Below are positions 26,607 through 63,453 of a stretch of DNA of 64,000 nucleotides, in pieces. The stretch is taken from the NCBI RefSeq assembly GCF_000384075.1, contig NZ_KB913025.1, positions 2,316,690 through 2,380,689 on the forward strand. The letters run 5' to 3'. Under the pieces are notes generated by a model. That model saw only the letters and a list, made by a program, of their open reading frames with translations. It made no database searches and was not told where the DNA came from. Source of the stretch: Methylovulum miyakonense HT12. Its GTDB lineage: Bacteria > Pseudomonadota > Gammaproteobacteria > Methylococcales > Methylomonadaceae. How positions within the stretch are numbered: the stretch's first letter is position 1; each line of letters begins with the position of its first letter. The translations under genes were made by a program, and so were the position numbers.

Positions 26607-28907
26607 TTATATGTAGAACCAAGGTAATTGAATTTGTGTGACCATAGATATTGGAAATGTTTTCTCCCCCTTAAGTAAGGATTCCAGCTTAATTTCACCT
26701 TCAGGTTTACATTGAAGAGTGTAAGCTCTCCGAAGTCTAGTGTTGGGATTTTTCTGCTTCGGAAAAATGCGTAGTTCACGTTCTCCATTAGGTTTGGGAT
26801 CGCCAAGTCTTATCGCCTGAATAGCCGTTCCGGATAAAGGTACTGTACACAAATTCAAGTTGTTCAGTGGTTGAGTCAATTTCCCTACATATGTCCGACG
26901 TATAAGAGTACCATTTTGATCAGCTTCTTTAACTTCAATGGCGTAATTCCGAACGGCAGCAACTTTAACAAGGTCAATCACCCCAGTTCCGGCCTTTTCG
27001 GTTTGGCTTGTCGGATCGTATAATGGCCATGTTGCTGCCCCGAGACGGTCTCTTATATCGGCAATCTTATTAATGCCAAAAGACCACAGAATACCAGCCG
27101 CTAAAGCGGCATAGGGGGATGCAAATGAAGTAGCTGGTTCTATTGATGAAGCATCTCTTCCTAAGATGTCTATGGCATACGTTGCTTCGCCTGGAGCGTA
27201 AAATTTAACAGTGCGATCCCCATAAGCGGAGTAACTTGATCTTATGAGTTCTCTTGTTGCTGCGCCAACGACTAATGTGCGTAATGCGGTTCGCTTATCG
27301 CCGACTATTTCAATATCACCTAGAGAAGCTGGAAAAGTTGAGGTTTCATCAAGATCAATAGGGCTATTTCCAGATGGAAGAACTATCAATTTTTCGCGAT
27401 CACCCAATGTTTCTTTCATAATTGACACAAATGTATTAGAACCGCTACTGATTGGAATGTAACTAAAGTTTATTATATTTACTCTTGTATCTAAATACTC
27501 GTATGCTTTCACAATATCACCATCAGCCGGATTAGTATTTGAAGACGGTGAACACATGTCAAGCATCCTGAAAAAAACAATCCGTGGTAAGAGGTGATTG
27601 GTATCTATATTAACTTTACGCGCTCCCATTCCTGAAGCAATAGACGATACAATAGAGCCATGACTAGCCTGCATTAGCGATTCAACATTCCAAGATGAAT
27701 ATAAGTTTTGGTCTTTACAGAGACTAATATCGCCAGTTGGTTGTAGTTCATTTCCACGTACAATACCGGCACCTAAAAAGTCATCAATAAATCCGTTTTC
27801 ATCTTCATCTCTCTCGGTTGGCTCCGGTTCCGAAGCAGGCGGCTCTTGTTCAATTTTTTCATCAAAGGCTGTCGGCAAAATAGGCGCTCCTTTTGCATCA
27901 GCTAAACCGTTATCTGCTACACCAATTACGGTGGTATGGATATGTCTGCTTTCATTATTCAGAATTGCTACGAGAAGATCCACATCGTAAGGCCATTGCT
28001 CTAGTGCTACTGGAACATTCTGCTTAACCAAAGGTATTGTGGCCGTTTCGCCTTGAATTTGAATATTTGCCCGGTAGTGAATATCATGATCAGCAAAAAC
28101 CTCATTATTCTCCCATGATTCGGTTGATACAGATGCGGACGGCATTTTAATAGAGTTTAAATAATCAAATACTTCTTCAGAATGATTAAAATTAGTTTGC
28201 GTATCAATTCTTGGTTCAATAACCTCGAGTTTAGATTCCGAATTTCCAGCATTAGATGCAGGTGTATTGTCAAGGACATACACGCCATGCTTTAATAAAC
28301 ATGCTTCTTCATTTTCTTTTATACAATCAATTGCTTCAGCAATTTTAGATATTAAATCATCTCTGTTGGTAACACTTTCTGGTATCGTAGATATATCAGT
28401 CCACAAAGGCATTTCAGGTAATTTGACAATATCACCTATCTGCAAATCAGTGGCTTTTTGATCTGAATTTAACAATACTTTCTTGACTGCATCTGGCTTA
28501 AGACCTCTGCTAACAACAATTCCTTCCAAAGTATTTCCTTTTTTTACTTTGATTTTCGAGTTGTTCTTTATTTGTATACAAGGTGCAAAACTTATTTTTG
28601 TGCCTGCGCCATTTGGTAGTGGCTCTGATGATACTAAATTTGGTAAATGATAACCTCCGCAACGTTTTGTGAGATATTCTTGAGCTGTTTCGCCAGAGGC
28701 AATAATACCCTCAACTGGTTTTGAAATTCGTGCAAGAACAGCGTTCACTTGTGCGGCCCACTTTGGATTGACACGTAATGTAAATTTAGTTGAAAGCGGG
28801 TTAATTGAATGATTTTTTCCTGTTGATTCTTTGGAAGAGCTTAATTGCGATGTCGATGAAATTATAATCACTAATACGATTCGCAAACATATCGAATTTA
28901 CCAACAT
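26607..28907 (-). CDS. Secreted subtilisin-like (S8) protease with LysM-like domain, 766 aa
   Basis: Begins MLVNSICLRIVLVIIISST, an export signal. Residues 118-163 look like a LysM fold (KVKKGNTLEGIVVSRGLKPD ... LQIGDIVKLPE), suggesting attachment to peptidoglycan. The S8 catalytic domain is complete: Asp332 (VIGVADNGLAD), His416 (ASHGSIVSSIASG), the oxyanion Asn514 (PSGNSP) and Ser594 (ATSFASP). An acidic stretch (PEPTERDEDENGF) sits between Asp and His, as in calcium-binding insertions. The final 150 residues are unassigned. First Met precedes a weak ribosome site. AT-rich relative to the tra genes. Follows the trypsin-like gene by 14 bp on the same strand, so the two are co-transcribed. 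Confidence 0.85.
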   Translation of the reverse strand: MLVNSICLRIVLVIIISSTSQLSSSKESTGKNHSINPLSTKFTLRVNPKWAAQVNAVLARISKPVEGIIASGETAQEYLTKRCGGYHLPNLVSSEPLPNGAGTKISFAPCIQIKNNSKIKVKKGNTLEGIVVSRGLKPDAVKKVLLNSDQKATDLQIGDIVKLPEMPLWTDISTIPESVTNRDDLISKIAEAIDCIKENEEACLLKHGVYVLDNTPASNAGNSESKLEVIEPRIDTQTNFNHSEEVFDYLNSIKMPSASVSTESWENNEVFADHDIHYRANIQIQGETATIPLVKQNVPVALEQWPYDVDLLVAILNNESRHIHTTVIGVADNGLADAKGAPILPTAFDEKIEQEPPASEPEPTERDEDENGFIDDFLGAGIVRGNELQPTGDISLCKDQNLYSSWNVESLMQASHGSIVSSIASGMGARKVNIDTNHLLPRIVFFRMLDMCSPSSNTNPADGDIVKAYEYLDTRVNIINFSYIPISSGSNTFVSIMKETLGDREKLIVLPSGNSPIDLDETSTFPASLGDIEIVGDKRTALRTLVVGAATRELIRSSYSAYGDRTVKFYAPGEATYAIDILGRDASSIEPATSFASPYAALAAGILWSFGINKIADIRDRLGAATWPLYDPTSQTEKAGTGVIDLVKVAAVRNYAIEVKEADQNGTLIRRTYVGKLTQPLNNLNLCTVPLSGTAIQAIRLGDPKPNGERELRIFPKQKNPNTRLRRAYTLQCKPEGEIKLESLLKGEKTFPISMVTQIQLPWFYI

Positions 28908-28921
28908 AAATTATTACCTTT

Positions 28922-29968
28922 TCAGAATCGGCAATTTTGGATTCGCGTGAAGTGCCGCGAGTTTATACCACAAGCTGCTACTTTTTGATCTTCAATCCAC
29001 TTTTCTGCCCATGTAAGAAAATCCGGCCCTCCAATTGCGGAGACTAATGACGATCCGTAAATTTTTGTGGAAGCATTCTTGTAAAAGACACGGGAATTAA
29101 CCCCTACAATCATTCGTTGAGCAAATCCGCTCGCACTTGCCCTACGAACAAATGCTGGCCCACCACTATCGCCCGGACAAAGATTGGCCTTATCGGGATC
29201 GTCAATGGTAAAGAAATTATTATTTTCTATGTCACTGTAGAATTTGATGTAATCTTTGCCATATTTTAAACGAAGCTTCGTGGCAGATTTTGATGTTTCA
29301 TCAATAATCGTTTCGCCGATACGGTATTTTCCATCGGTTTGTTTATTTTCAACTATGTCACTGACACAACCATAACCGGTTAATATTAATGTTTTATTGA
29401 CAAAACGGCTCATTTCAGAAGTGTCAATCGTTTCGTATTTAAAACCTACAGGTTCTTTAAAAGGTTTATCAATTTTACATAAGGCGAAATCTGCTGAGAC
29501 ATCGCTTTTGTCTTGGTAGCGGTGATGCTGTTTGCATGAAGTATTATAATTTGTTCCTTGATAAGTAAAACTGACTGTTCGATCATCCGGAACGCAATGC
29601 GCTGCCGTGAGAATAACCATTGGGCCGATTAGTGCTGCGGTGCAAGCGGCCGTTCCTTCTGGTGTCTTGAACGTTGCATAGAGCGAAGCCGGCCAATCGT
29701 TGGAAACGGCTTCACGTCCACCACGAAGTTGCGGCATGAATCCTGTCGGTGTTTGCTTAAGGTCAAGTACTGCCTTATAAACGACACCACTATCAGGTCG
29801 ATAGTTAGGGGCTACAATAACATTCTGGTTGCTTGATTGCGATACTACCCCAGTAGTCAGTGCTATCATCCTTGATTCCGAAAATTCAGTGGTCGTCGTT
29901 GTAGACGAGCTACAGGCTTGAAAAATAAAAAAACAGAACAGGATTATGAAAGAAATAAATTTGTTCAT
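28922..29968 (-). CDS. Trypsin-like (S1) serine protease lipoprotein
   Basis: 348 aa. N-terminus MNKFISFIILFCFFIFQACSSS is a lipoprotein signal with Cys19 as lipid site, followed by a Thr-rich spacer. Chymotrypsin-fold domain with intact triad: His124 (LTAAHC), Asp160 (SADFALC) and Ser268 (CPGDSGGP). The preceding PQLRGGREAVSNDWPASL resembles the zymogen activation/IVGG region, so proteolytic maturation is possible. Membrane-anchored in the periplasm or outer membrane. It lies between a lipoprotein gene and an S8 protease gene on the same strand; a proteolytic cascade is conceivable but is inference. Confidence 0.88.
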   Translation of the reverse strand: MNKFISFIILFCFFIFQACSSSTTTTTEFSESRMIALTTGVVSQSSNQNVIVAPNYRPDSGVVYKAVLDLKQTPTGFMPQLRGGREAVSNDWPASLYATFKTPEGTAACTAALIGPMVILTAAHCVPDDRTVSFTYQGTNYNTSCKQHHRYQDKSDVSADFALCKIDKPFKEPVGFKYETIDTSEMSRFVNKTLILTGYGCVSDIVENKQTDGKYRIGETIIDETSKSATKLRLKYGKDYIKFYSDIENNNFFTIDDPDKANLCPGDSGGPAFVRRASASGFAQRMIVGVNSRVFYKNASTKIYGSSLVSAIGGPDFLTWAEKWIEDQKVAACGINSRHFTRIQNCRF

Positions 29969-30041
29969 ATTGGTCTACCGCTTTACTTTAAAAAAGACAT
30001 GAGTGGTATTTTTTCGATTTGACAATCAGTTCGAAAAATTT

Positions 30042-30064
30042 AATCATTCCCTCATGGAATGATT
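30042..30064 (-). terminator. Hairpin between the lipoprotein and S1 protease genes
   Basis: 9-bp stem AATCATTCC / GGAATGATT with a 5-base loop. On the minus strand it is followed by AAATTTTTCG. It lies 17 bp after the lipoprotein gene stop, so it may terminate or attenuate transcription before the protease genes. Confidence 0.6.
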
Positions 30065-30080
30065 CTATGTATCATTAAAT

Positions 30081-31202
30081 TTATTTCTTTTCCTCAATTA
30101 TATCTTGCAGTTTTTGTCCGCCCTTTGATACCCACTCTTCACTCGTTTCAATAATCTTGATCGCTTCTGAAGTATCTCTTTCGGTAACTTTGACAGTCAC
30201 TTTAAAATTTCCTGCTGGAGTACCGACATATCTCTCTACTGCGTCCGAAATTGGCGGTGCGAGCATCCAACCTGAATCATTCTGAAGATTGTCAGAATCC
30301 AGTTTTTTTGCATCGCTCAAATCGTAACCAGATATATTAGTTTTAAACGAAGCGATAGTTTTCGGTCCATTAAATTCTTTCCCTTTATCTGTCCAGTAAG
30401 CTTCCATATTAAAATCAAGCTCTACATCAACTGTATTATTAGAGATATTGAACAATTTCATTAATAATGTTGGTGGAAAAAACCAAGTACCCAATTGGTT
30501 GCTCAACACCTTTGCCTTTGCATAAGGCATTTCAAAATATAGAGGTTTAACTTGAAAAAATCGTCCATCTGATGAATGCATTAGCCCGTATTGGGTAAGT
30601 GCTGCTGTGTTTGATCCTGTAATTTCACGTTTTAGTTCGAACCCTATGTAATTAGGCTTTAATGTGAAACCTTCTGCCGTTTGCTCTCCTTTCTCCCCTC
30701 CTGTAAGAATGCAATTTACTTTTTGTCGTGTAGCGGGAGTGACAGACTGCCAATATTTGTCATCAATGAGCCTGCCGGTATATTGAGCGGTATATAATGT
30801 TTTTTCTTCTTCGAATTTTTTCTTGACAAAATCGGTAGCCAAACCGACAGCCGCGCTTGCTAGAAGTGCAAGCGGCGCAGCAACATCAACAGTCGGTCCA
30901 GAAGGTTTAGGAGGTTTGCATTCATCCACAGTTTTCGTTTGTAAGAATATAGCGTCACACGATAGTTTTGCATCTTTATGATATGTCTTTTTATAATTAT
31001 CAATAAAACTGCACATTTTATCTAATTTAGTTGATGAATCGCATATAGCGGGCAAACTATTGCATTTTAGTGGCGTTAAAGATACTTTTTCTCCTGTTTT
31101 CTTATTTGAACTGGTATGTGCAGGAAGAAAAATAGTACAACCACTAGCTAATGCAGATAGAAAGGTGATAAACAGAAAACGGTTAAAATTGATTGTTGTC
31201 AT
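30081..31202 (-). CDS. Lipoprotein of unknown function, 373 aa
   Basis: The start at 31202 (MTTINFNRFLFITF) has GGAG 10 bp upstream; an earlier Met at 31214 does not. Lipobox ALASGC, then a Thr/Ser/Lys spacer. The N-terminal part holds several Cys (CNSLPAICDSS, MCSFI, LSCDAIFL, ECKPPKPSGP), then a hydrophobic Ala/Leu stretch (AAPLALLASAAVGLA). The rest is beta-rich with GFELKREITGSNTA and VKVTERDTSEAIKIIE. No family recognised. First gene of an AT-rich minus-strand set with two secreted serine proteases; possible substrate, inhibitor or anchor of them. Confidence 0.7.
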   Translation of the reverse strand: MTTINFNRFLFITFLSALASGCTIFLPAHTSSNKKTGEKVSLTPLKCNSLPAICDSSTKLDKMCSFIDNYKKTYHKDAKLSCDAIFLQTKTVDECKPPKPSGPTVDVAAPLALLASAAVGLATDFVKKKFEEEKTLYTAQYTGRLIDDKYWQSVTPATRQKVNCILTGGEKGEQTAEGFTLKPNYIGFELKREITGSNTAALTQYGLMHSSDGRFFQVKPLYFEMPYAKAKVLSNQLGTWFFPPTLLMKLFNISNNTVDVELDFNMEAYWTDKGKEFNGPKTIASFKTNISGYDLSDAKKLDSDNLQNDSGWMLAPPISDAVERYVGTPAGNFKVTVKVTERDTSEAIKIIETSEEWVSKGGQKLQDIIEEKK

Positions 31203-31819
31203 GAACCACTCCAAGATTATTTTTTTAATTGCTTAGCTACTAATTATGGCCATCAAATCTCAAAAAAATATACATCCTTGAATGTCAATGATAGGTCTGT
31301 AAGAAAATCTGACTTTTGCAATGGCACATTAGGACTATTGAAACTGATGACCAATTGAAATAATAACTTAAATTGTTTTTTTACAACATATAATTTTGCT
31401 ATAACTTTGAGATGATTTAGATGATAAGTTAATACTGTCCAAAAAATCGAAAAATGGATTTGTTTATGGACTTCATGGTGTTTTGGGAATTTGGTATTCG
31501 CTGACAGTCTGTAATTGCAGCGGTTGGCTATGGAAACAAGCGCAAGTAAGATTCCTAGCGGGCTGAAGGTTGTAAATTGTTTAGGCAACGAGCATTTACT
31601 ATTCACATAGCGATTATTAAAAGCTATGCCTGGGGGTCTGCTTACCCACAAGATTATCCAAGATAATATGTATTCATTCACAGTCAGGTTTGGGTCGATT
31701 ACTGACGATCAGCTTCCTTTTAAATGGATAATTTCCAGCGACTGCTTTCGATTAACTTCTGGGGTTCCTGCCACAATTTTTGATGGCAAGTTTGACTGAA
31801 ATACCCACGATCAAAGCCT
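31203..31819. other. AT-rich spacer before the replication origin
   Basis: About 600 bp. The only long frame (31253-31681, minus) lacks a ribosome site and reads like random AT-rich sequence, so it is not annotated. The promoter of the lipoprotein gene should lie near 31210-31300. Nothing else recognised. Confidence 0.5.
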
Positions 31820-35286: not shown

Positions 35287-37109
35287 AGTCCGATTACGAT
35301 TACCAGTTTCCCTGGCGGCCGATATTTGAAGTAATCGCAATTGCCGGATGGCTTGTGGGCGCCGCCTTAGCCTATTTGACCAGCCAATCGTCAGGCTTGC
35401 CGCGGGAACCCTTCGACTGGCTGATGATTGCCTGCGGCGTGATGGTGTTATGGCGGTTGCCGCCTGCACTTAGCCTTTGGGTTCGGAAAAGACGGCTGCG
35501 GCAATTCCGGTTCCAGTATCTGGAGGCCGACAAGCTCAAACAATTCGTGCAACGCCACCCGGAGGAACTATGGTTTGGCTGGGGTTTTGATTGGGTGCAA
35601 AAACATGCGCAACTGGCTTATGAAATCCTCAAACGCGATGTCTCCTTGCTGATCCCGACCGACCATCAGCGTATGGGCTCCGCCTGGATCCATGGCCTGG
35701 AAATTTCGGAAAGTGATGTCCGGCAACCGATCCAACATACTGCCGGGCATACCCTGATTGTCGGCACCACCGGGGCGGGCAAGACGCGGGCGTTTGATGT
35801 GCTGGTCACCCAGGCGGTGCTGCGCGGTGAGGCGGTGATCATCATCGACCCCAAAGGCGACAAGGATCTGATGGCGTCGGCCAAGCGGGCGTGTCACTTG
35901 GCACAGCGTCCTGACCGATTTGTTTATTTCCATCCGGCTTTTCCCGAAGACAGCGTGCGCTTGGATCCTTTGCACAATTTTAACCGTCCGTCGGAGATTG
36001 CCAGCCGCATCACCGCCATTTCACCGGGTGAAACCACCAATGACCCGTTCAAAGCCTTTGGCCAGAAATCCCTGGATAACGTCATCCAGGGGCTGATGGT
36101 GATTGAGGAACGGCCGACCTTGGCTAAGCTGCGCCGCTATCTGGAAGGTGGGCCATCGACCTTGGTCGTCCAGGCTTTGGAGCGTTATTACGATAACTGC
36201 CTGGGTCATTGGCGGCAAGATGCTAGGCCCTATTTGAAGACCGCCAAAGACATCGATGCCAAAGCCGCTGGCTTGGTGCGCTTTTATCGGGACGTGGTGC
36301 AACAGCAAGCCCCCAATCTCGATCTGGAAGGCTTGTTATCGCTGTTCGAACACGACCGCACCCATTTCAGCAAGATGGTCGCTTCCTTGATTCCGATCAT
36401 GAACATGCTGACGTCTGGCCCCTTGGGGCCTTTGCTGTCACCCAATCCGCTTGATCTGGATGACCATCGCCCGATCACCAATACTGGCCATATCATCGAA
36501 AAAGCCCAAGTGGCATATATCGGCTTGGATTCGTTGTCGGATGGTCTGGTCGGCAGCGCCATCGGTTCGATCTTGCTGGCCGATCTTGCCGCAGTGGCGG
36601 GGGATCGCTATAACTACGGCGTTTCGGACAGGCCGGTGAATGTGTTTGTCGATGAAGCCGCCGAGGTGATCAACGATCCCTTTATCCAGGTATTGAACAA
36701 AGGTCGTGGCGCCAAGATGCGCTTGTTTATTGCCACCCAGACTTTCGCCGATTTTGCCGCCCGCACCGGTTCCCAGGATAAAGCCCGGCAAGTGCTCGGT
36801 AACGTCAACAACCTGATCGCCCTGCGCATCATGGACAGCGAGACCCAGCAGTACATCACGGACAACCTGCCGAAAACCCGGCTGAAATACATCATGCGCA
36901 CCCAGGGTGTCGCGACCAGTGCCACTAATCCCAGCGTGTTTTCCGGCAACGTCGGTGAACGCCTGATGGAAGAGGAAGGCGATTTGTTTGCGCCGCAGTT
37001 ATTGGGGCAACTGCCTGACCTGCATTACATCGCCAAATTGTCCGGCGGGCGCATTGTCAAAGGCCGCTTGCCCATATTGCGTTCAGCAACTGATACGGCG
37101 AAGAGGTGA
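35283..37109 (+). CDS. traD: TraD, type IV coupling protein
   Basis: 608 aa. Inner-membrane ATPase linking relaxosome to channel. Two N-terminal membrane helices (IFEVIAIAGWLVGAALAYL, WLMIACGVMVLWRLPPAL); Walker A VGTTGAGKTRAFDV near residues 158-171; VIIIDPKGDKDL; Walker B VFVDEAAEV; and RLFIATQTFADFAAR with the arginine region typical of TraD/TraG-like couplers of MOB-H elements. The start overlaps traI by 4 bp (ATGA). No defects. Confidence 0.95.
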   Translation: MKSDYDYQFPWRPIFEVIAIAGWLVGAALAYLTSQSSGLPREPFDWLMIACGVMVLWRLPPALSLWVRKRRLRQFRFQYLEADKLKQFVQRHPEELWFGWGFDWVQKHAQLAYEILKRDVSLLIPTDHQRMGSAWIHGLEISESDVRQPIQHTAGHTLIVGTTGAGKTRAFDVLVTQAVLRGEAVIIIDPKGDKDLMASAKRACHLAQRPDRFVYFHPAFPEDSVRLDPLHNFNRPSEIASRITAISPGETTNDPFKAFGQKSLDNVIQGLMVIEERPTLAKLRRYLEGGPSTLVVQALERYYDNCLGHWRQDARPYLKTAKDIDAKAAGLVRFYRDVVQQQAPNLDLEGLLSLFEHDRTHFSKMVASLIPIMNMLTSGPLGPLLSPNPLDLDDHRPITNTGHIIEKAQVAYIGLDSLSDGLVGSAIGSILLADLAAVAGDRYNYGVSDRPVNVFVDEAAEVINDPFIQVLNKGRGAKMRLFIATQTFADFAARTGSQDKARQVLGNVNNLIALRIMDSETQQYITDNLPKTRLKYIMRTQGVATSATNPSVFSGNVGERLMEEEGDLFAPQLLGQLPDLHYIAKLSGGRIVKGRLPILRSATDTAKR

Positions 37110-37111
37110 CC

Positions 37112-37744
37112 ATGCAACGAAATTTGCTATTCAGCCTGTTGGTTTGGTTGTTGGAAATCATCCTGGTGGCGGGGTTTGTGTCGGATGACTGGGCGAGAGA
37201 CGTTCAGGCTTTGGAAGATAATAGCCTCATCGCTTATTTCGGTGTCGAAAAAGAGGCGGAAATCCGCCAGACCAGCCAACAATGGTTTGACCGGTTATTC
37301 GTCAACACTGGCATCAGGGAGAGTGTCTACCGCTACTTCATTCCGACCGAGCGCGAGCGGCAACTATCAAAAGGCTTTGAAGACGTCGGCCGCCATGATT
37401 TGTTTCCCTTTATCCAAAGCCGGTTGGATGTGCTTTGGGACACTGTCTACCAAATGATCAAACGCTTTATCGTGGCGTGGGTTTGGTGGCCCTTTTTGGC
37501 GGTTACCCTGGTGCCTTTTGCAATCGATGGACTGATCCGGCGCAAAGTCAGCCAGACCAACTTTGATTACCCCAGCCCGATGGCGCATCGCTACAGCCTG
37601 TACGTCATGTTGGGTGCAGTGTATTTGCTGTTGATGGGCTTGACGCTGCCGTTTCCGGTGCCGCCGCAAGCGATCCCGGTGAGTGTGTTTATCGTAGCTT
37701 TGGCCTTGAACGTGTTGTTGGCGAATACCCAGAAGCGGGTTTGA
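37112..37744 (+). CDS. DUF4400 conjugative membrane protein (SXT orfJ-like)
   Basis: About 210 aa, starting MQRNLLFSLLVWLLEIIL at ATG 37112, 3 bp after the traD stop; a GTG at 37106 is alternative. Hydrophobic helices at the N-terminus, VAWVWWPFLAVTLVPFAIDGLI in the middle, and two at the C-terminus, with the signature DGLIRRKVSQTNFDYPSPMAHRYS. This family follows traD in SXT/R391 and many related elements. Exact role unknown, probably in the coupling complex. It marks the left border of the cargo that follows. Confidence 0.87.
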   Translation: MQRNLLFSLLVWLLEIILVAGFVSDDWARDVQALEDNSLIAYFGVEKEAEIRQTSQQWFDRLFVNTGIRESVYRYFIPTERERQLSKGFEDVGRHDLFPFIQSRLDVLWDTVYQMIKRFIVAWVWWPFLAVTLVPFAIDGLIRRKVSQTNFDYPSPMAHRYSLYVMLGAVYLLLMGLTLPFPVPPQAIPVSVFIVALALNVLLANTQKRV

Positions 37745-37855
37745 ATACGCTCCCTCTGCATCAGCACCGCATTTGATGGGTACTGATGCATAAAAGCCCT
37801 TCCTATAGCCCATTATTTCTCATATTATGAGTTATAGAAACAGGGGCTATAACTC

Positions 37856-38965
37856 ATGAAGTGGAACTGGCAACAAACAGATTGGCCGCATTTTAGCTAC
37901 GACCCGACCAAAATTGACGACAGCGAAAAACGGTTGCTGCTCGGTGCCGGGCTGTTGTTCGGCGCCTTCAAGCATTTGGGTGATGAAGACAAGCAGCAAC
38001 TGACCATCGAACTCATCAGCAACGAAGCCTTAAAAACCTCGGAAATTGAAGGCGAATACCTGGATCGTGACAGCCTGCAATCCTCTATTCAACGTCAATT
38101 CGGCTTGGTCACGGATAACCGCAAGGTCTCCGCCGCCGAACAAGGCATTGCTGAGGTTATGGTGGATTTATACCGGGGTTTTGATGCGCCCCTGTCCCAT
38201 ACCCTGCTGTTCGAGTGGCACAACATGCTGACTAACGGTCGGCGTGATTTAAACGACATTGGCCAATACCGCACACATACTGACCCTATGCAAATCGTCT
38301 CCGGCGCCATCTATGCCCCGAAAGTGCATTTTGAAGCGCCGCCCTCATCACAAATGATGGCGGAAATGGAGCGGTTCATTGCTTGGTTTAACGACACGGC
38401 GCCGACCGGAAAAAGTCCGCTGCCCGCTTTGCTGCGTGCGGGCATTGCCCACCTCTATTTTGTCAGCATCCACCCTTTCGAAGATGGCAATGGCCGGATT
38501 GGCCGGGCGCTTGCCGAAAAAGCCCTTGCCCAATGCGTGGGGCAACCGACGCTGATGGCCATTGCCTACACCATTGAACGCAATAAAAAAGCCTATTACA
38601 CAGCCCTTGAACAAGCCAACAGGCGCAATGAGATAACGCCTTGGCTAATTTATTTCGCGGACATGGTGTTAGCTGCCCAAGGTTACACGGCAACGTGGAT
38701 TGAATTTCTGATCAGTAAAGCCAAACTCTATGACCGCTTGCGCGGGCAACTGAACCCACGCCAGGAAAAAGTGCTGGCCAGACTATTCCGCGAAGGCCCG
38801 GAGGGTTTCATCGGCGGCTTGAGTGCGGAAAAATACATCGGCATTACCGGTGCGCCTAGAGCGACGGCTACCCGTGATTTGCAGGATTTGGTGGCGAAAG
38901 GGGCTTTGCTTCGGCAAGGTGAACGGAAACATACGCGTTATTTGCTTAATCTCGAAAACAACTGA
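37856..38965 (+). CDS. Fic-family adenylyltransferase with N-terminal DUF4172 and inhibitory motif
   Basis: 369 aa. N-terminal WNWQQTDWPHFSYDP is the DUF4172 start. TSEIEGE at residues 61-67 fits the (S/T)xxxE(G/N) inhibitory helix that blocks ATP placement, so the enzyme is self-inhibited until released. The Fic motif HPFEDGNGRIGR (206-217) is complete. The C-terminal part ends with a winged helix (GITGAPRATATRDLQDLVAKGALLRQG). It AMPylates a protein hydroxyl; the target is unknown. ATG 37856 follows CAGGGGCTATAACTC. Lies alone between DUF4400 and the AT-rich operon; its GC content resembles the backbone, so it is a separate acquisition. Confidence 0.92.
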   Translation: MKWNWQQTDWPHFSYDPTKIDDSEKRLLLGAGLLFGAFKHLGDEDKQQLTIELISNEALKTSEIEGEYLDRDSLQSSIQRQFGLVTDNRKVSAAEQGIAEVMVDLYRGFDAPLSHTLLFEWHNMLTNGRRDLNDIGQYRTHTDPMQIVSGAIYAPKVHFEAPPSSQMMAEMERFIAWFNDTAPTGKSPLPALLRAGIAHLYFVSIHPFEDGNGRIGRALAEKALAQCVGQPTLMAIAYTIERNKKAYYTALEQANRRNEITPWLIYFADMVLAAQGYTATWIEFLISKAKLYDRLRGQLNPRQEKVLARLFREGPEGFIGGLSAEKYIGITGAPRATATRDLQDLVAKGALLRQGERKHTRYLLNLENN

Positions 38966-39434: not shown

Positions 39435-40454
39435 ATGAAATATAAGCTAATTGCTATTTTGTTAACTGGGGTTTTAATTGGTTTTGCTACATGTTTCTAT
39501 TGGAAAAAACTCAACCTAGGGTTATCGGGTTTTTCTGTAGCAACCAAGCAGATAGAAAATGATAAAGGAATAATAAAAATTACTTTTGCACAGTGGGGTA
39601 AGGAAAAGTATTTGATTTATTTGCCTATATATATCGCTCAAGAGAAAGGATTGTTTGCTAAACATGGCCTTGACGTTTCGCTAATTTTTAGTGGGAACGA
39701 TGACCAAGTATTTGCAACTGTTATTAGAGGTGATGCTCAATTTGGTGTTGGAGATCCAATATTTACTGCGATTAGCCGTCAGCGCGGATTAGATGGCGTT
39801 GTAGTTGCCTCAATTGTTGATCATGTAGCTTTATGGGGAGTAGCGAAATCAAATGCTAAAAAATACGATATTCCAAAGGATTTTGTAAATACTGCGGTAG
39901 GCACATTCCCCCGTCCATCGACAACATATACCTTAATGAAAGAAATGATTGAAAAAAATAAGGTTTCTGAGGCAAAAATTGTTGAAACACCTATTGGAAA
40001 TGAACTTGCGCTTTTGGAAGCAGGGCAAGCCGATGTTGTAATGATGCTTGAGCCAGCAGCCTCTATTGCCGAATCACGAGGGTATCATGTTGTTACAAGC
40101 TTTCCTAAACTATGGGGATCATTTGCATTTACTGGACTTTCTACAACAGAGTCATGGATAAAAGACCACAATTCAGCATTATTAGCGGTAAGACAAGCAT
40201 TAGAAGAAGCTCTTAATTTACTTCATGATGATACTGACGGGGCAGTCGAAGTAGCGAAAGCATTATTTCCAACTTTAGATGCAAAAGTAGTAGATTCAGC
40301 AGTCAGACGCATGGTGGTTGATGGTACTGTGCCGCAACATATAGATATTTTGCCTGAATCTTGGTCAAAAGCAGTTTCGGTGAGGCAATCAGTGGGTGAT
40401 CTCCAAATCGGAAATAATTGCGAAGTTTGTATTTTTAAGGACAGTTCAAAATGA
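39435..40454 (+). CDS. ABC-type solute-binding protein (NMT1/THI5, SsuA/TauA-like), 339 aa
   Basis: N-terminal hydrophobic anchor (LIAILLTGVLIGFATCFYW), then a periplasmic binding domain of the nitrate/sulfonate/thiamine-precursor class: IKITFAQWGKEKYLIYLPIYIAQEKGLFAKHGLDVSL in pieces, GDAQFGVGDPIFTAI, TAVGTFPRPSTTYTLM, ELALLEAGQADVVMMLEP and GSFAFTGLSTTESWI. The ligand pocket cannot be assigned. First gene of a five-gene unit; its stop overlaps the next start (ATGA). AT-rich codon use, unlike the tra genes. Confidence 0.88.
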   Translation: MKYKLIAILLTGVLIGFATCFYWKKLNLGLSGFSVATKQIENDKGIIKITFAQWGKEKYLIYLPIYIAQEKGLFAKHGLDVSLIFSGNDDQVFATVIRGDAQFGVGDPIFTAISRQRGLDGVVVASIVDHVALWGVAKSNAKKYDIPKDFVNTAVGTFPRPSTTYTLMKEMIEKNKVSEAKIVETPIGNELALLEAGQADVVMMLEPAASIAESRGYHVVTSFPKLWGSFAFTGLSTTESWIKDHNSALLAVRQALEEALNLLHDDTDGAVEVAKALFPTLDAKVVDSAVRRMVVDGTVPQHIDILPESWSKAVSVRQSVGDLQIGNNCEVCIFKDSSK

Positions 40455-41794
40455 ATTATTTAGGTGAGATTTCAATTATTTGTACCATAATATTATTTAT
40501 TGGTCTTTATTGTATTAATGATTTAAATAAAAAAATTGAAGAATTAAAAAAGGTTATAAATAATTCTGGATTTCTTGATCTATTAGCAACAGTAATAACT
40601 TGTATATTTACCGCATTTTCATTCAAATATCCTGAATTTTCATATATTGGAATAGCCTTCACTCTTTCATTATGGGTTATTATAAAATTATCTAATATTA
40701 CCGTAAGTATTAATGACAAAATAGGCTTATCTGAAAAAAAAATATCTAAAGAATTAAACGCATTATTGCCTATGAATATCAACATAACATCGACTATAAA
40801 TATTGCGATATTTGATAGATTGGTTATTTATATGCCAATTTTTTTTGCAGACACCCAATCATATTTTAAACAAGAAGGCTTGTCTGTTAACTTTATTCCA
40901 TTTGGAAATGATTCACTGGTTGTTGATGCGGTAAAAAACGGCAGTGCTGATATTGGCGTTTGTGATCCTACTGTAGCAATGGAGGCACAAGAAAAAGACT
41001 TAAAAATTATCATGCCTGTTTGTTTAGAAGTAGCAGCGAGCATGTGGACAACTTCCGTACAAAAATTGCAGGATAAAATTAATAAGCATGAATCTATAAC
41101 AATAGCAACATATCCAAAACCAAGTACATCTTATGTTTTAGCGCATAAATATAAAAAGACTTTGGAAGATGGTGGTTATTCCCCCAATCTAATTATTCTA
41201 GAAGAATTTAAATACAATGATGCTATGTTTAGCTCTTTTCCAAACCTTTTAAAGTCATTTGTACAATATGATCTAGTTTTACTATGGGAGCCATATACAA
41301 AAGTTTTGGAAGTAAAAGGTATAGGTAAAGTTGAAAAATGGAATGACTTTGAAACAAAGAAATCTAATTTTATTGAACAAAATAAAGATAATCCAAATGA
41401 GCATTTAGTAATGTATTCGGCGATTATATGTTTAGTAAAAAATAACGCTGATTCAATGCTTGCATCCAAGATTTATAAAGCGGTAAGTAGAGCAACTATT
41501 GCGATACATTCTGCAAAGGGTAAGGAAGATTATAAAAGATGCTTTAATAAACATATAAAACGAACTGGAAATTGGCTTAATAATTATATTAATGATGATT
41601 CAATTGAAAATTTGCATACAGAAATTGTAAATAGCAATGTCTTACCCTATGTTGACTTTGACCATATTGAGCCATGGGGACATCAATTATTTAATAATGT
41701 TGATTTGAGATTGGGTATTGAAGATGGGGGCACTACTTGCAAACTTGCAAATTTTGATTCACACGAGAAATGTAAATCATTATTTTTAAATTAA
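40451..41794 (+). CDS. Membrane-anchored second solute-binding protein, 447 aa
   Basis: The first 85 residues contain three hydrophobic segments (ISIICTIILFIGLYCI, LLATVITCIFTAFSF, IGIAFTLSLWVIIKL). The rest is another NMT1/THI5-like domain: NINIAIFDRLVIYMPIFFADTQSYFKQEGLSVNF in pieces, NGSADIGVCDPTVAM, IATYPKPSTSYVLA, FVQYDLVLLWEPYT. Three transmembrane helices would put the domain outside if the N-terminus is inside. A binding protein fused to its own membrane region is unusual; a sensor or second-affinity role is possible. Translationally coupled to the first gene. Function inferred only. Confidence 0.78.
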   Translation: MNYLGEISIICTIILFIGLYCINDLNKKIEELKKVINNSGFLDLLATVITCIFTAFSFKYPEFSYIGIAFTLSLWVIIKLSNITVSINDKIGLSEKKISKELNALLPMNINITSTINIAIFDRLVIYMPIFFADTQSYFKQEGLSVNFIPFGNDSLVVDAVKNGSADIGVCDPTVAMEAQEKDLKIIMPVCLEVAASMWTTSVQKLQDKINKHESITIATYPKPSTSYVLAHKYKKTLEDGGYSPNLIILEEFKYNDAMFSSFPNLLKSFVQYDLVLLWEPYTKVLEVKGIGKVEKWNDFETKKSNFIEQNKDNPNEHLVMYSAIICLVKNNADSMLASKIYKAVSRATIAIHSAKGKEDYKRCFNKHIKRTGNWLNNYINDDSIENLHTEIVNSNVLPYVDFDHIEPWGHQLFNNVDLRLGIEDGGTTCKLANFDSHEKCKSLFLN

Positions 41795-41806
41795 TTTTAA
41801 GTGAAA

Positions 41807-43393
41807 ATGTGTGGAATTGCAGGCATTATCAGTAAGCCAAATAACGCTGATATTAATATTTCAAAATTAGTTAATGAAATGTTAGAACTAATTTCTCATA
41901 GAGGACGTGGGGAATTAGGAATTAAAACAGGTAATAATTACTCATTAGGATGCTATCGCCTCCCTGTTCTCACTAATGGGGGAGAACAACCTGTTTCAAA
42001 TGAATTGAAAAGCATTTTTGCTGTTTTAAATGGGGAAATATATAACTATAACGAGTTAATTGATAGTTTAAAATTAAAACATACCATAAAAGGTGATTGC
42101 GATACTGTTATATTGCCGCATCTTTATGAAGAAGGCGAATTATCACTACGCAAATTATCTGGTATGTATGCTTTGTGCGTACACGATACTGTCTCAAATG
42201 AAACAGTACTCATGCGTGATTTAATTGGAATTAAGCCTCTTTACATATTTGAGAATAACTTTTTTATTGCTTTTGCATCAGAAAAGAAAGCATTTTCCTA
42301 TTTAAATCATGGCAAAGTATCAGAGGTTATGCCGGGGGAGTTGCTTCGCCTTAAACATGGGCTAATAACATCACGAGCCAATATTGTTAAGCCTTGGAAT
42401 AAAAGCTTAGTGAAAGGAAATTATCAAAGTGTTGATTATACCGGACTAAGGGATGAAATTACCAATTCACTTATACAGCAACTACCAAGCGAATGGCCTG
42501 TCGCAGTACTCTGTAGTGGTGGAATCGACAGTGTGATTCTCACTTATTTGGCAAAGAAATATCATAAGCATAACGTTCAAGCATATGTAATTGGTAATGA
42601 AAACTCAGCGGATGTCAAAGCGGCAAGATTAGCCTGCCACCATCTCGATGTAAACTTAAAGGAAATTCGAATTTCCATGGAAGAAATTATTAAAGTGCTT
42701 CCTGAAGTGATTTATCATGTCGAATCATTTGAATCAAACCTAATACGAAATAGTATTCTTAGTTATTTAGTGTTCCGTGAAATTCGTAAGGATGGTTTTC
42801 GAGTTGCAATTTGCGGAGAAGGAGCAGATGAATTATTTGCTGGCTATGGAGATTTTAGATTACTAAGTTCGATTATAGAAAAGCAAAAGTTTATGAAATT
42901 GCTTTTAGATGATTTATTTAAAACACAGCTTCAGAGGGTTGATAGAACATCTATGGCCTTCAATGTGGAAACTCGTGTCCCTTTTTTAGATGATAACGTT
43001 ATCGAATATGCTTGTAATATCCCTATTGAAAAAAAATGTGGGAAAGATTTTGGTAGGTGGCTAAGTAAACTACCACTCCGTCATGCTTTTGCAAATACCC
43101 AGATCCCAACAGAAATTTTATTAAGACAAAAAGAGACTTTTTCTTCAGGAGCAGGGCTAGGAGATTTATCTATGGTTGGTGGTCCGATAGAGAAAATTGC
43201 GCAAAGTCGTATATCAAGTAATGAGTTTATTTCTATGCAAAGCAAATATCCGGTCATTGATATTAAAACATACGAACAAGCTTTATATCTATCAGAGTAT
43301 CTTAAGTATTTCTTTGTGCCTGAGGATTATCGGCCTCCTGTTGTAGCTACTGTCGAGTTATCATGCTTGAGTGGGTTTGAAACTGAAAAATGA
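41807..43393 (+). CDS. Asparagine-synthetase-like glutamine amidotransferase, 528 aa
   Basis: The ATG at 41807 makes Cys2 the N-terminal nucleophile (MCGIAGIISK), the class II glutaminase that releases ammonia from glutamine. GRGELGIKT and LNGEIYNYNEL belong to that domain. The synthetase domain has the PP-loop CSGGIDSVI (about residues 235-243), which activates a carboxylate with ATP, and ICGEGADELFAGYG, and RTSMAFNVETRVPFLDD. All AsnB hallmarks are present, so it probably amidates a carboxylate. Being embedded in an importer operon argues that the acceptor is not simply aspartate, but this is inference. Stop overlaps the next start. Confidence 0.9.
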   Translation: MCGIAGIISKPNNADINISKLVNEMLELISHRGRGELGIKTGNNYSLGCYRLPVLTNGGEQPVSNELKSIFAVLNGEIYNYNELIDSLKLKHTIKGDCDTVILPHLYEEGELSLRKLSGMYALCVHDTVSNETVLMRDLIGIKPLYIFENNFFIAFASEKKAFSYLNHGKVSEVMPGELLRLKHGLITSRANIVKPWNKSLVKGNYQSVDYTGLRDEITNSLIQQLPSEWPVAVLCSGGIDSVILTYLAKKYHKHNVQAYVIGNENSADVKAARLACHHLDVNLKEIRISMEEIIKVLPEVIYHVESFESNLIRNSILSYLVFREIRKDGFRVAICGEGADELFAGYGDFRLLSSIIEKQKFMKLLLDDLFKTQLQRVDRTSMAFNVETRVPFLDDNVIEYACNIPIEKKCGKDFGRWLSKLPLRHAFANTQIPTEILLRQKETFSSGAGLGDLSMVGGPIEKIAQSRISSNEFISMQSKYPVIDIKTYEQALYLSEYLKYFFVPEDYRPPVVATVELSCLSGFETEK

Positions 43394-44151
43394 TAACTGT
43401 AACGAACTTATCCTATACATTTCCTGTTCAAAATGGAGTGAGCTTTGTTTTATCAGATATTTCGTTTTCTGTTAATGAAAATGAAATATTAGTGCTTTTA
43501 GGGTCTAGTGGCTGCGGTAAGACTACATTATTGAGGTTATTGAGTGGTCACCTCACGCCAGATATTGGGAATATTTTAATTGATGGATTTGCACCTGAGA
43601 TGAAGAGAGGTATGTTAGGTATTTTGTACCAAGACCCACGACTAATCCCCTGGTTAAATATTAAAGAAAATATATGCTTGCCAAATAAAATCCAATCATT
43701 AAATAATAATTCTGTAATAAATTTCGATAATTTAGTTGATGTACTTCGGTTGAGAAATCATTTAACAGCTTATCCGGCGCAACTTTCTGGAGGGCTGCGA
43801 GAGAGGACGGCTATCGCTAGAGCCTTAATTAATGCGCCAAATGTGTTAATGTTGGATGAGCCTTTAGATAGTACCGATTATATGCACAGACTTGAGGTGG
43901 AGGACTATATTTTTAATTATGTTCGCAAATGTAAAGCTTGTTGCGTGATTGTGACGCATGACCTTGAAATGGCATTGGCACTAGGCGATGAGATTCTGTT
44001 AATGCCAGCAATTGAAAATCATATCAAATCTGAAAAATTTAGTATCTCCCCCACATTAAAGGCGTTATTACCATCTCAAGCTAGAGTTTCACCAGAAATG
44101 TCAACGTCGTTATCTAGTTTATTGAAAAAATACAAGAGGTTATACCGATGA
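43390..44151 (+). CDS. ABC transporter ATPase (SsuB/TauB/NrtD-like)
   Basis: 253 aa. Walker A GSSGCGKTT (38-46), Q-loop Gln81 (YQDPRLIPWLN, where RLIPW is typical of nitrate/sulfonate importers), signature LSGGLRERTAIARAL (132-146), Walker B VLMLDEPLD (152-160), and the switch His in VTHDLEMAL. The complete enzyme should power import together with the permease encoded next. Starts and ends overlap its neighbours by 4 bp (ATGA). Confidence 0.93.
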   Translation: MITVTNLSYTFPVQNGVSFVLSDISFSVNENEILVLLGSSGCGKTTLLRLLSGHLTPDIGNILIDGFAPEMKRGMLGILYQDPRLIPWLNIKENICLPNKIQSLNNNSVINFDNLVDVLRLRNHLTAYPAQLSGGLRERTAIARALINAPNVLMLDEPLDSTDYMHRLEVEDYIFNYVRKCKACCVIVTHDLEMALALGDEILLMPAIENHIKSEKFSISPTLKALLPSQARVSPEMSTSLSSLLKKYKRLYR

Positions 44152-44903
44152 TGAATCGAAATAAGGTATTTTGTTTGCAAATTCTTATGTTTGTTCTCGT
44201 ACTTTTCTTTTGGCAAATTATTGGTGCGAGCTCGGAAAAAGCACGTTTTTTTTATTCAACACCCTACGAGATTTTTTTGACATTAACTAAGGATTTTGTT
44301 GAGTATACATTCTGGTGGAACGTAACAATCACTCTTTCGGAACTTGTCGTTGGTTTTGTTTGTGGAAATGTCCTTGGTATATTTTTGGGGTTAGTCCTTT
44401 GGCTATTTCCTTTATTGGGAACCATTGCACGGCCATATGTTGTGGCATTAGGAAGTGTGCCAGTATTTGCAATTACTCCTTTATTGATTTTATGGTTTGG
44501 CATTGGTTTTACGAGTAAAGTAGTAATCGTTATATTGTCTACCTTCTTTGTAGCATTATTTTACGCCTACACTACAGCTCTTGAAATTGGGCAAGAGTAT
44601 GAGGAGTTAATCAAGGGATTTGGTGGTAAACGATATGATCTTTTTCAACATGTAGTTTTTGCAGGAACGCTCTATAGATCATTTTCTGTGTTAAAAATTA
44701 ATATTGGTTTCGCACTTGTAGGTGTTTATGTCGCCGAATGGATAAGTTCACGGGAAGGGATTGGTCAATATATCTTGAAGGCAGTCTCTTTATATGATGT
44801 TTCAAGAGTGTTTGTCGGTTTGATAATTTTTATCGCAATAGCATTGATTTTTAATCTTGGACTTACTTTTGTTGAACGCAAACTATCTAAATATAATTTT
44901 TAG
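44148..44903 (+). CDS. ABC transporter permease (SsuC/TauC-like)
   Basis: 251 aa with about six hydrophobic helices (QILMFVLVLFFWQIIGA, LVVGFVCGNVLGIFLGLVLWLF, VALGSVPVFAITPLLILWFGIG and others). The conserved cytoplasmic loop ELIKGFGGKRYDLFQHVVFAG is the EAA-type contact with the ATPase. It forms the membrane channel for the operon's binding proteins. Last gene of the five; a spacer of about 235 bp follows before traL. Confidence 0.92.
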   Translation: MMNRNKVFCLQILMFVLVLFFWQIIGASSEKARFFYSTPYEIFLTLTKDFVEYTFWWNVTITLSELVVGFVCGNVLGIFLGLVLWLFPLLGTIARPYVVALGSVPVFAITPLLILWFGIGFTSKVVIVILSTFFVALFYAYTTALEIGQEYEELIKGFGGKRYDLFQHVVFAGTLYRSFSVLKINIGFALVGVYVAEWISSREGIGQYILKAVSLYDVSRVFVGLIIFIAIALIFNLGLTFVERKLSKYNF

Positions 44904-45139: not shown

Positions 45140-45421
45140 ATGGAAGCCATAGCCATCCCCAAATCCATTGACGACCCGATCCACATTTTGCTGTGGAGTG
45201 CCGATGAGATCGTGCCATTTATGGTGTGCATGCTCACCGGCATGTTGATCGATCATTTCATTCCCGCCTTGGCGATTGGGGTCATTGTCGTTAAGTGCTA
45301 CCGACGCTTTCGTGACAACCGTCCGGATGGTTATACCTTGCACGCGGTCTATTGGCTGGGTTTGCTGCCCAGCAAAGCAATCACCATTCCCAATCCCTTT
45401 ATCCGACGGTTTTATCCGTGA
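45140..45421 (+). CDS. traL: TraL, pilus assembly membrane protein
   Basis: 93 aa: AIPKSIDDPIHILLWSADEIVPFM is the TraL start (short cytoplasmic N-terminus with DDP and WxxDE), then two hydrophobic segments (MLTGMLIDHFIPALAIGVIVV, LHAVYWLGLLPSKAI). First gene of the main transfer operon. GGAGATCAGT precedes ATG 45140. Its upstream 235 bp should contain the operon's activator-dependent promoter; none was picked by eye. The stop overlaps the traE GTG. Confidence 0.92.
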   Translation: MEAIAIPKSIDDPIHILLWSADEIVPFMVCMLTGMLIDHFIPALAIGVIVVKCYRRFRDNRPDGYTLHAVYWLGLLPSKAITIPNPFIRRFYP

Positions 45422-60844: not shown

Positions 60845-62008
60845 TCAATTTGTATCAAAAGGGAAAGTGTCTGTTATCCCAGCGTCTTTAAAGCGCTTTG
60901 GCAATTTCAGCAATTGCGATCTTATATCGGCTGCTGATGCAGTCAAATCTACAGTAGCAAAACATATACGATGTCCCTGAATCATAACCGTTTCATCTAC
61001 CATTTTTCCAACTGAGGGATGTAGGAGCAAGCCGCTAGCATTATCGTCCAGAGAATCACCGCTGCCAACTTGTGATCGAAGGTAGGCGTAAATCTGATAA
61101 ATGTACCCACTGCGCAATGTTTCTTCCCGATACTGTCCTCTGGTTACAATAGATGTGAACTTGGTATCTATAACAATCCTCTGTCCTGATGGAACATGAT
61201 CAAGAACTACATCAGTACGCATCGTTGGTAGAATCTTGTCAATACCCGAAGTCTTCTGCTCGATTTGCCAGCTTATCGTTTTACCACTCTGCACACGCCA
61301 TCCTTCAGGACTCAGCACCACTTTGTAAAATCCGCCAACAGCTTTTTCGAAAAGTCGACGCACCCACATCACCTCTCGATCCGGTAATGAAAGCACATTT
61401 GTTCCTGTCGCTTCGGTAGGCAACGATAGGTCAAAAGCCAGCTTGGCAGCAGCAACCATGAATTGGTCGTCTGTATCGTGGCGACCAAACCTGTCTGAAC
61501 TCATCTCGGTACGCGTGGGTGGTTTACCTGATACGCCCATCGCTTTCATGCCATTAGCCAGAGATCGGCAGCGATGGGCAATTTTGGGTCGTTTTACAAC
61601 TTTGGCGATTTTTTCCAGAGCAGACCGAACAAAACGGTTGCGGGGTGTATCAATCGTCAATTCATCGAATCGACAAGCGACAAGTCCATGCGCTAGCAAC
61701 TGGCGGCGCTCAGTAGTCAATATATCGATTTTCCCACGAATTCGGTTGAGCACGGCATCACGGGATCGGTACCCAAAACTAAGTTGACGATGTTGCCGAG
61801 TTTCCACAGCATGAGCGAGAATTTCAGCAACAAGATCGGGAAGATCATCAGGGCTGTCTTCCAAACCAATATTACCGATGTTACGAGTACTAAAAAGATC
61901 CGACGCGTAAAGCATCATAAGCCAAAGATTGCGCACTGGAATACGTCCGATGTATCCCTCTGTATCCAACTCTGGTTTATTCATTTGTTCTGATGCCAAC
62001 ACTGTCAC
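60845..62008 (-). CDS. mcrC: McrC, nuclease subunit of McrBC-type modification-dependent restriction
   Basis: 387 aa. GTG 62008 overlaps the mcrB stop (GTGA); the ATG at 61984 is alternative. Begins with IGRIPVRNLWLMMLYASDLF (McrC N-terminal hallmark), SFGYRSRDAVLNRIRGKID, DTPRNRFVRSALEKI, and the PD-(D/E)xK nuclease site MRTDVVLDHVPSG ... RIVIDTKFTSI. It cuts DNA after translocation by the McrB AAA motor. Confidence 0.92.
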   Translation of the reverse strand: MTVLASEQMNKPELDTEGYIGRIPVRNLWLMMLYASDLFSTRNIGNIGLEDSPDDLPDLVAEILAHAVETRQHRQLSFGYRSRDAVLNRIRGKIDILTTERRQLLAHGLVACRFDELTIDTPRNRFVRSALEKIAKVVKRPKIAHRCRSLANGMKAMGVSGKPPTRTEMSSDRFGRHDTDDQFMVAAAKLAFDLSLPTEATGTNVLSLPDREVMWVRRLFEKAVGGFYKVVLSPEGWRVQSGKTISWQIEQKTSGIDKILPTMRTDVVLDHVPSGQRIVIDTKFTSIVTRGQYREETLRSGYIYQIYAYLRSQVGSGDSLDDNASGLLLHPSVGKMVDETVMIQGHRICFATVDLTASAADIRSQLLKLPKRFKDAGITDTFPFDTN

Positions 62009-63453
62009 CAATTTTCCAACAACAATTCACACGCCTTTTTCGCATCATTGGGTGCATCAAACCAGTATTCGTCAAGTAAAGGGCCTATTTCGGTTTCCAC
62101 CACCTGCTTAAACCACTTTTTAGTGTCTCGCTCTTGTTTTTCATCGGAAGGCGTCACATAACTGTGGCCGACCTGAAATTGTTTGCCCAAGCGGGGATCA
62201 GCAATAATCTGCTTATTCAACTCGTTGATCCTACGTTCAATGTCGACTACCAAGGTCGAATCGATGTTGCACTTATTGACCACCCAATCTTGCCAGGTTT
62301 TACCCAATTTGGGTTCCAGTCCGACAAATGCGAATCGACGGCGTAGCGCCAGATCAACCAAGGCCAATGATCGATCAGCGATGTTCATTGTCCCGATCAC
62401 ATAAAGATTCTCTGGCACATGAACCCGCCGCTCGCCATTTTCATCTGGGTAGCAAAGCTCCAGAGCTTCATTGGGATTGCGTTTACCAGACTCCAATAAA
62501 GTAAGAAGTTCACCGAAAATCTGCGCCGGGTTACCCCTGTTAATCTCCTCAATCACCACGACGAACTTTGACGATGGATTCTTCAATGCCGCTTTAATGG
62601 CTTCCATAAAAACGCCATCAGCCAACGATAATTTGCCCTCGCCTGTGGGACGCCAACCCCTTACGAAGTCTTCATAGGATAAGTTCGGGTGAAACTGCAC
62701 AGCACGGATTTTGCTCTCATCCTTCTGCCCAATCAATGCAAAGGCCAGACGTTTTGCCAACCATGTTTTACCGGTTCCAGGCGGGCCTTGAAGGATTAGA
62801 TTCTTTTTGTCACTCAGACGGTCAAGCAGACGACTGATTTCTTCAGGCTTAAGAAAGCAGCCGTCTTTCAGAATATCCTCAACGGTATATACCTCGTTTG
62901 AGAGACTGTTATCATTTTTAACTTCTTGGTTTTCGTCAGCATCTTCAGGCACGCTACTAATTTCTGTTGGCGAACTGATTTTTTTCTGCCAATTAGGCTC
63001 ATTACAGAAGCGATTTATGTCTTGAACCTGGTTGTCGAAAGCGAAGGCAATCAAACTATCCGCCTTCCATTCTCCAGGAAGTACACGCCAGATTGTTGGC
63101 TGGTAGGTATAAAAGTACCATTCGCGAATAGGCTCCACTTTCGTCCAGTTGACTCGTACTCGTTTGCCATCGTTCAGATTCTCTATGATTGTCCCAATAG
63201 CCTTGATAGCCATCACCGATACAGTGTGTTCTTTGTTGTCGAACGGTAAACCATGTTTGCGCGTGTAGGCTGCTTTAATTGCGATACGCTCGCCTGGTCG
63301 CATCGATCGCACCACATCAAGGTACTGATCATCGTAACCATTCTCCCAAATACCTTCATCGAGGAAACGCTGCGTCTGATCCTCAGTACCTCCATAACTG
63401 GCACCAACAAACCAGTAGGACGGTGTTGCGGTAGTATTTGTATCTTCATTCAT
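62005..63453 (-). CDS. mcrB: McrB-like AAA+ GTPase with N-terminal EVE/ASCH-like domain
   Basis: 482 aa from ATG 63453. The first 150 residues start SYWFVGASYGGTEDQTQRFLDEGIWENGY and include MRPGERIAIKAAYTRK and WTKVEPIREWYFYTYQPTIWRV, an EVE/PUA-like fold that in related systems reads modified bases. The AAA+ motor follows: Walker A GPPGTGKT (223-230), Walker B FVVVIEE (297-303), McrB NRGN (305-308), and GTMNIADRSLALVDLALRRRF. The modification recognised is unknown. Operon with mcrC, downstream. A plasmid-borne defence against modified DNA. Confidence 0.92.
   Translation of the reverse strand: MNEDTNTTATPSYWFVGASYGGTEDQTQRFLDEGIWENGYDDQYLDVVRSMRPGERIAIKAAYTRKHGLPFDNKEHTVSVMAIKAIGTIIENLNDGKRVRVNWTKVEPIREWYFYTYQPTIWRVLPGEWKADSLIAFAFDNQVQDINRFCNEPNWQKKISSPTEISSVPEDADENQEVKNDNSLSNEVYTVEDILKDGCFLKPEEISRLLDRLSDKKNLILQGPPGTGKTWLAKRLAFALIGQKDESKIRAVQFHPNLSYEDFVRGWRPTGEGKLSLADGVFMEAIKAALKNPSSKFVVVIEEINRGNPAQIFGELLTLLESGKRNPNEALELCYPDENGERRVHVPENLYVIGTMNIADRSLALVDLALRRRFAFVGLEPKLGKTWQDWVVNKCNIDSTLVVDIERRINELNKQIIADPRLGKQFQVGHSYVTPSDEKQERDTKKWFKQVVETEIGPLLDEYWFDAPNDAKKACELLLENW

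Follow-up and report, generated by a model that had tools for sequence, protein, structure and literature searches.

The five-gene operon

In this study, we analyzed an AT-rich operon of five genes from Methylovulum miyakonense HT12, located in a 64,000-nt stretch of contig NZ_KB913025.1 (hereafter the window; all coordinates are positions in the whole stretch). An initial annotation had proposed that this operon joins an ATP-binding cassette (ABC) importer and two solute-binding proteins (SBPs) with an asparagine synthetase-like (AsnB-like) enzyme. All five open reading frames (ORFs) were present in the ORF list at 39435-44903 on the forward strand:

39435..40454, + strand: gene 1 (SBP1), exported or anchored SBP of the NMT1 family, 339 residues (Pfam NMT1, 2e-24)
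40451..41794, + strand: gene 2 (SBP2), three N-terminal membrane helices and an NMT1-type domain, probably cytosolic (Pfam NMT1, 1.7e-8, partial)
41807..43393, + strand: gene 3, AsnB-like glutamine amidotransferase/synthetase, 528 residues (Pfam GATase_7 and Asn_synthase)
43390..44151, + strand: gene 4, ABC ATPase, 253 residues (Pfam ABC_tran, 5.9e-30)
44148..44903, + strand: gene 5, ABC permease of the TauC/SsuC family, 251 residues (Pfam BPD_transp_1, 1e-19)

The near-universal overlaps and the coordinates described for these AT-rich genes were confirmed, with ATGA junctions at 40451, 43390 and 44148. The gap between genes 2 and 3, previously given as 6-12 bp, is 12 bp, since ATG 41807, which places the Cys at residue 2 (MCGIAG), fits better as the AsnB start than GTG 41801. 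No terminator-like site was found within the five-gene unit. The GC content of the operon was 0.29-0.38 (0.20-0.32 at third codon positions, GC3), compared with 0.53-0.56 (GC3 0.58-0.68) for traI, traD, fic and traC. The proposal of a single unit that was acquired horizontally is supported. The operon was single-copy in the host genome, in which other AsnB-related matches were distant and partial.

SBP1 has a hydrophobic N-terminal segment (residues 5-23), and the ATPase could be aligned over its Walker A (GSSGCGKTT), LSGG and Walker B (LMLDEP) motifs. In gene 2, the three membrane helices reported earlier were found at residues 4-22, 40-58 and 63-81, together with the NMT1 domain. The importer had been assigned to the SsuABC/TauABC type; this is a resemblance at the fold level only: gene 1 scored far below the TIGR01728 (SsuA) cut-off (24.3 vs 163.5 bits) and the permease below the cut-offs of the TauC/SsuC equivalogs (73.7 vs 342 and 68.3 vs 347 bits).

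Recurrence of the gene set and the SBP1 family

A neighbourhood search in other genomes had been suggested, and the linkage proved to be conserved beyond the phylum of the host. A scan of 84,980 species with a profile of SBP1 relatives yielded locus L031 (a Bacteroidales assembly), and an SBP1 profile of the sub-clade, which was then run on genomes of the host's class (369) and of the phylum that includes L031 (296), yielded L119, L121 and L124. With the window, the gene set occurs in five independent loci from Gammaproteobacteria and Bacteroidota. All four additional loci contained SBP1, the ATPase, the permease and a leaderless partner protein, and AsnB was present in two of them. In L031, SBP1 (51% identical to that of the window), a 673-residue radical-SAM/NMT1/membrane protein, a protein similar to seryl-tRNA synthetase (SerRS), the ATPase and the permease (39% identical) each abut the next gene. 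The content of L119 was AsnB, SBP1, a 438-residue protein, ATPase and permease, that of L121 was SBP1, AsnB, ATPase, permease and a 477-residue protein, and that of L124 was SBP1, a leaderless NMT1 protein of 452 residues, ATPase and permease. Because gene order differs between loci, the association is not one copied block. The five genes are a real recurring gene system, the core of which is the importer plus the second, probably inner, binding protein; the ligase is frequent but exchangeable.

SBP1 of this clade was rare at the thresholds used, being found in 4 of the 369 and 2 of the 296 genomes; a second genome of the L121 genus (G899) contained SBP1 at a contig end. No close copies could be identified in plasmids by DNA, or for gene 2 by protein. 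Viral contigs had no close copy of SBP1 or gene 2, and no importer genes adjoined the AsnB matches there. The gene 2 query found no second operon copy in 201 genomes of the host family, and an exact-peptide scan for gene 2 gave no match in the 84,980 species. A search with AsnB at E <1e-90 in 398 genomes of the phylum recovered the host only, a threshold too strict to be informative. Nothing relevant to this gene set was found in open-licence PMC papers.

Phylogenetic analysis placed the five system SBP1s and those of four plain importers (L032-L035) in one clade (support 100/98), separate from the SBPs of mostly amidase-containing operons. Since the nearest outer clades mostly adjoin amidases, amide chemistry recurs around this SBP1 family. 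Outside the clade, SBP1, ATPase and permease are most closely related to amidase-linked NMT1 importers (SBP, ATPase, permease and amidase or formamidase); these differ from the operon in that their SBP1 clade is separate and that no SBP2 or AsnB was seen adjoining them. Neither ORFs nor Pfam matches revealed an amidase or formamidase gene in the five-gene unit or its flanks.

Several additional features were observed in this family. Loci L037-L110 represent a large family of NMT1-type ABC importers, in most cases directly beside amidase-signature enzymes, which suggests uncharacterised amide uptake systems. A CmcI-type methyltransferase gene (L032:9324-10133) directly follows a plain importer whose SBP1 is from this clade. 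In L034 (5546-7897), an SBP-ATPase-permease operon is divergent from a leaderless NMT1 protein with Gly-Asp-Pro, near ExeA-like and exopolysaccharide genes. The SBP1 of L119 (8850-10313) extends at its C-terminus into a membrane helix and a probably cytosolic tail of ∼95 residues, and could be a receptor form of the binding protein.

The second binding protein and the AsnB-like enzyme

Homology of SBP2 to SBP1 was recovered by hhalign in the window, L031 and L124 (probabilities of 98.6%, 97.2% and 98.6%, respectively) and is likely for the L119 partner (61%, E 8e-5). In L031, the NMT1 domain is fused to a radical-SAM domain; the L124 protein lacks an export signal and has C-terminal membrane helices; and the leaderless proteins of L119 and L034 have neither signal nor helix. 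Because its relatives are radical-SAM-fused or devoid of an export signal, a cytosolic domain is the simplest reading for gene 2. The Lys-rich loops after its first and third helices fit a predicted topology with the N-terminus outside and the domain inside. Thus, the SBP2 domain probably lies on the cytosolic side. L031:7923-10896, on a Bacteroidales mobile element, encodes a protein that joins radical-SAM and NMT1-type domains to C-terminal membrane helices; behind it comes a SerRS-like class II core. L121:641-2074 and 5170-5955 encode proteins of 477 and 261 residues without Pfam match, the first with faint SBP2-like motifs only.

A model of the SBP2 domain (alignment of 35 rows, pLDDT 75) matched the fold of CmpA, SsuA, TauA and THI5. 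It could be superposed on the cytosolic C-terminal regulatory domain (CRD) of NrtC (residues 274-603; 8wm7; Z 20.6, 289 residues, 3.7 Å) and on that of CmpC (9uak; Z 20.2). Inhibition of uptake has been reported to require the NrtC domain (PMC6603209), and the CmpC domain is reported, according to its ligand, either to block the ATPases or to release them (PMC13249358). SBP2 could correspond to such a regulatory domain in stand-alone form. The cassette and the cyanobacterial NrtABCD/CmpABCD importers share the SBP superfamily and, if the predicted location is correct, a second, cytosolic SBP-like domain (fold Z ∼20 over ∼285 residues). However, NrtC/CmpC importers have two different ATPases, one of which bears the CRD as a fusion, whereas the cassette has one ATPase of 253 residues and a separate SBP2 with its own helices or fusions. 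The cassette also differs by its AsnB, and nothing in it points to nitrate or bicarbonate.

A Cys-Asp-Pro motif (Cys171 in the window) was invariant in the three confirmed SBP2s (window, L031 and L124), compared with Gly/Ala-Asp-Pro in SBP1. Cys171 aligns with Lys62 of THI5, the residue that binds pyridoxal phosphate (PMC10848271), and hence is likely to point towards the ligand. SBP2 has its fold and Pfam family in common with the THI5/NMT1 pyrimidine synthases and ThiY, but both Lys62 and His66 of THI5 are replaced in SBP2, and no thiamin genes were present near the operon.

The AsnB-like enzyme had been described as having an intact Cys2 and PP-loop, and it passes TIGR01536 (300.7 vs a cut-off of 267.1 bits), with Cys2, SGGIDS at 237 and GEGADE at 337. 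All glutaminase and synthetase residues checked (Cys1, SGGxDS, E348, D351, R387 and K449, E. coli numbering) were retained in the three system enzymes. The position of E. coli D384, equivalent to human Asp-400, which lines the pocket for the amino group in a model of the human enzyme (PMC6748925), is Gln in all three (window, L119 and L121) and in none of 16 comparison enzymes, which have Asp, Glu or Asn. The T321-T322 positions are N-L in the window and L119 and N-H in L121. With both sites changed, an acceptor other than plain aspartate appears the more probable from the residues. In the tree, the system AsnBs grouped with plasmid-borne enzymes of Streptomyces and Tistrella, away from housekeeping AsnB (100/99). 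These nearest relatives differ in retaining Asp at D384 and in carrying I-D or V-D at T321-T322, and no importer operon was seen in the short stretches available. The enzyme slot of L031 holds a class II core of the SerRS type that is akin to type-2 SerRS and, by its sequence, another ATP-dependent activator of amino acids. Import of a carboxylate followed by its amidation, as suggested in the initial annotation, is possible, but amidation does not belong to the invariant core: AsnB occurs in three loci, the SerRS-like protein in one and neither in one.

Mobile-element setting and proposed function

The operon is flanked by genes of a conjugative element:

37106..38965, + strand: left flank, TIGR03747-like gene (traJ/s043-like by position) and Fic protein (DUF4172 and Fic; Pfam, TIGRFAM)
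45140..45421, + strand: right flank, small traL-like ORF opening a traLEKB-type block (labelled by position and block homology)

Further to the left, a MobH relaxase (TraI) and a TraD of the SXT subfamily both scored above their profile cut-offs; the gene in the traJ position matched TIGR03747 only below cut-off, and the traL block lies to the right. Hotspot 1 of SXT/R391 elements is located between traJ and traL (PMC2791158), and the operon would therefore occupy a classical cargo position. Elements of the SXT/R391 type have 52 syntenic core genes with ∼97% identity to SXT; by the selected genes compared here, the backbone is not closely related to SXT. The closest tra DNA in the plasmid collection was that of Methylomonas plasmid pUP202, with the order traL-traE-traK, where other genes precede traL. 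Elsewhere in the window, a second AT-rich block on the minus strand (26607-31681, 36-42% GC) contains genes for two proteases, one subtilase-like and one trypsin-like, and two further genes that match no Pfam family, and a McrBC-like restriction pair (60845-63453) lies close to the right-hand end of the tra region.

The reading that we prefer, to which we give a probability somewhat short of even, is a mobile cassette that imports and chemically modifies one small molecule, with SBP2 as its inner sensor or receiver. First, judged by their families, SBP1 would capture the ligand outside the cytoplasm for import by the ATPase and permease. Second, SBP2, a paralogue of SBP1 that its relatives would place at the inner membrane face, may bind this ligand or a related one inside the cell, and could either gate the importer, like the SBP-like domain of NrtC/CmpC, or hand the ligand on. 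Finally, the AsnB-like enzyme (SerRS-like in one relative) would use ATP and glutamine to convert a carboxylate that is presumably not plain aspartate, most simply the imported molecule or a derivative of it.

Several observations weigh against this reading. The enzyme stands outside the invariant core, as L124 has neither AsnB nor another ligase, and the grouping of the three system AsnBs was weakly supported (68/77). The SBP1s of L032-L035 are nested in the system clade at loci without detected SBP2 or AsnB (except for the leaderless NMT1 protein of L034), and so a plain importer also exists. The 477- and 261-residue proteins of L121, the former its partner protein, gave no significant NMT1 match. 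The topology of gene 2 is predicted solely from charge and relatives, and the periplasmic SBP CmpA scores as well as the CRDs against the SBP2 model.

A bolder version appears rather doubtful: an undescribed class of mobile systems built around a swappable ATP-dependent ligase, either AsnB-like or SerRS-like combined with radical SAM, which would be controlled or fed by an ABC importer and by a stand-alone copy of the importer's binding protein in the cytosol, for defence, competition or signalling and not for nutrition.

A serious rival, though an unlikely one, is that the operon serves mobile-element defence or competition between bacteria. The importer and an intracellular SBP2 would then detect or gather a metabolite, and a toxic or protective product would come from the enzyme. 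The distribution of the cassette is rare and patchy, as might be expected for such a role, and most related loci are in mobile or defence neighbourhoods: L119 adjoins the defence genes HmaA and HmaB; L031, on a Bacteroidales element, adjoins a type I methyltransferase (and AbiE-like genes by reading of the sequence); L124 is beside an integrase and candidate PDC (defence) genes; and the window element carries a SoFic-like Fic gene adjoining the operon as well as McrBC. However, mobile-element cargo clusters by default, no effector-like gene was present, and with PADLOC 2.0 no part of the cassette matched a defence-specific profile, the only similarities being weak or generic (ATPase, QueC and radical-SAM).

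We consider it improbable that the operon is an ordinary importer of nutrients, regulated by an SBP domain inside the cell, in which AsnB would do no more than provide asparagine or assimilate nitrogen. In favour of this are the nutritional nature of the importer family, the amidases beside SBP1 relatives, the precedent of NrtC/CmpC and the lack of another close asnB in the host genome; yet the D384Q change and the affinity of AsnB to plasmid enzymes and not to housekeeping AsnB argue otherwise, and a SerRS-like replacement, as in L031, is ill-suited to nitrogen assimilation. Even lower is the probability that SBP2 is itself an enzyme on the type II binding-protein fold, THI5-like or DszB/MqnA-like with Cys171 as catalytic residue. 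DszB and the MqnA/D enzymes have this fold and the invariant Cys occupies the Lys62 position, but the latter rests on three confirmed sequences, the leaderless protein of L034 has Gly there, and Lys62 and His66 are absent. Chance placement of an importer beside a stray asnB, for which the four clade members without AsnB might speak, can be rejected almost entirely, as the same combination occurs in different gene orders in the window, L119 and L121, from three bacterial families.

The cassette is a variant of SBP-dependent importers. The known intracellular case is the SBP-like domain fused to NrtC/CmpC, which gates transport; stand-alone intracellular copies of SBPs had only passing mentions in the open-licence PMC literature. 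With an outer and an inner binding protein and a swappable ligase in one unit, the cassette would provide a compact model for the gating of importers from inside and for the passing of imported molecules to enzymes. In addition, its repeated presence beside defence genes raises a possible link between small-molecule uptake and the biology of mobile elements.

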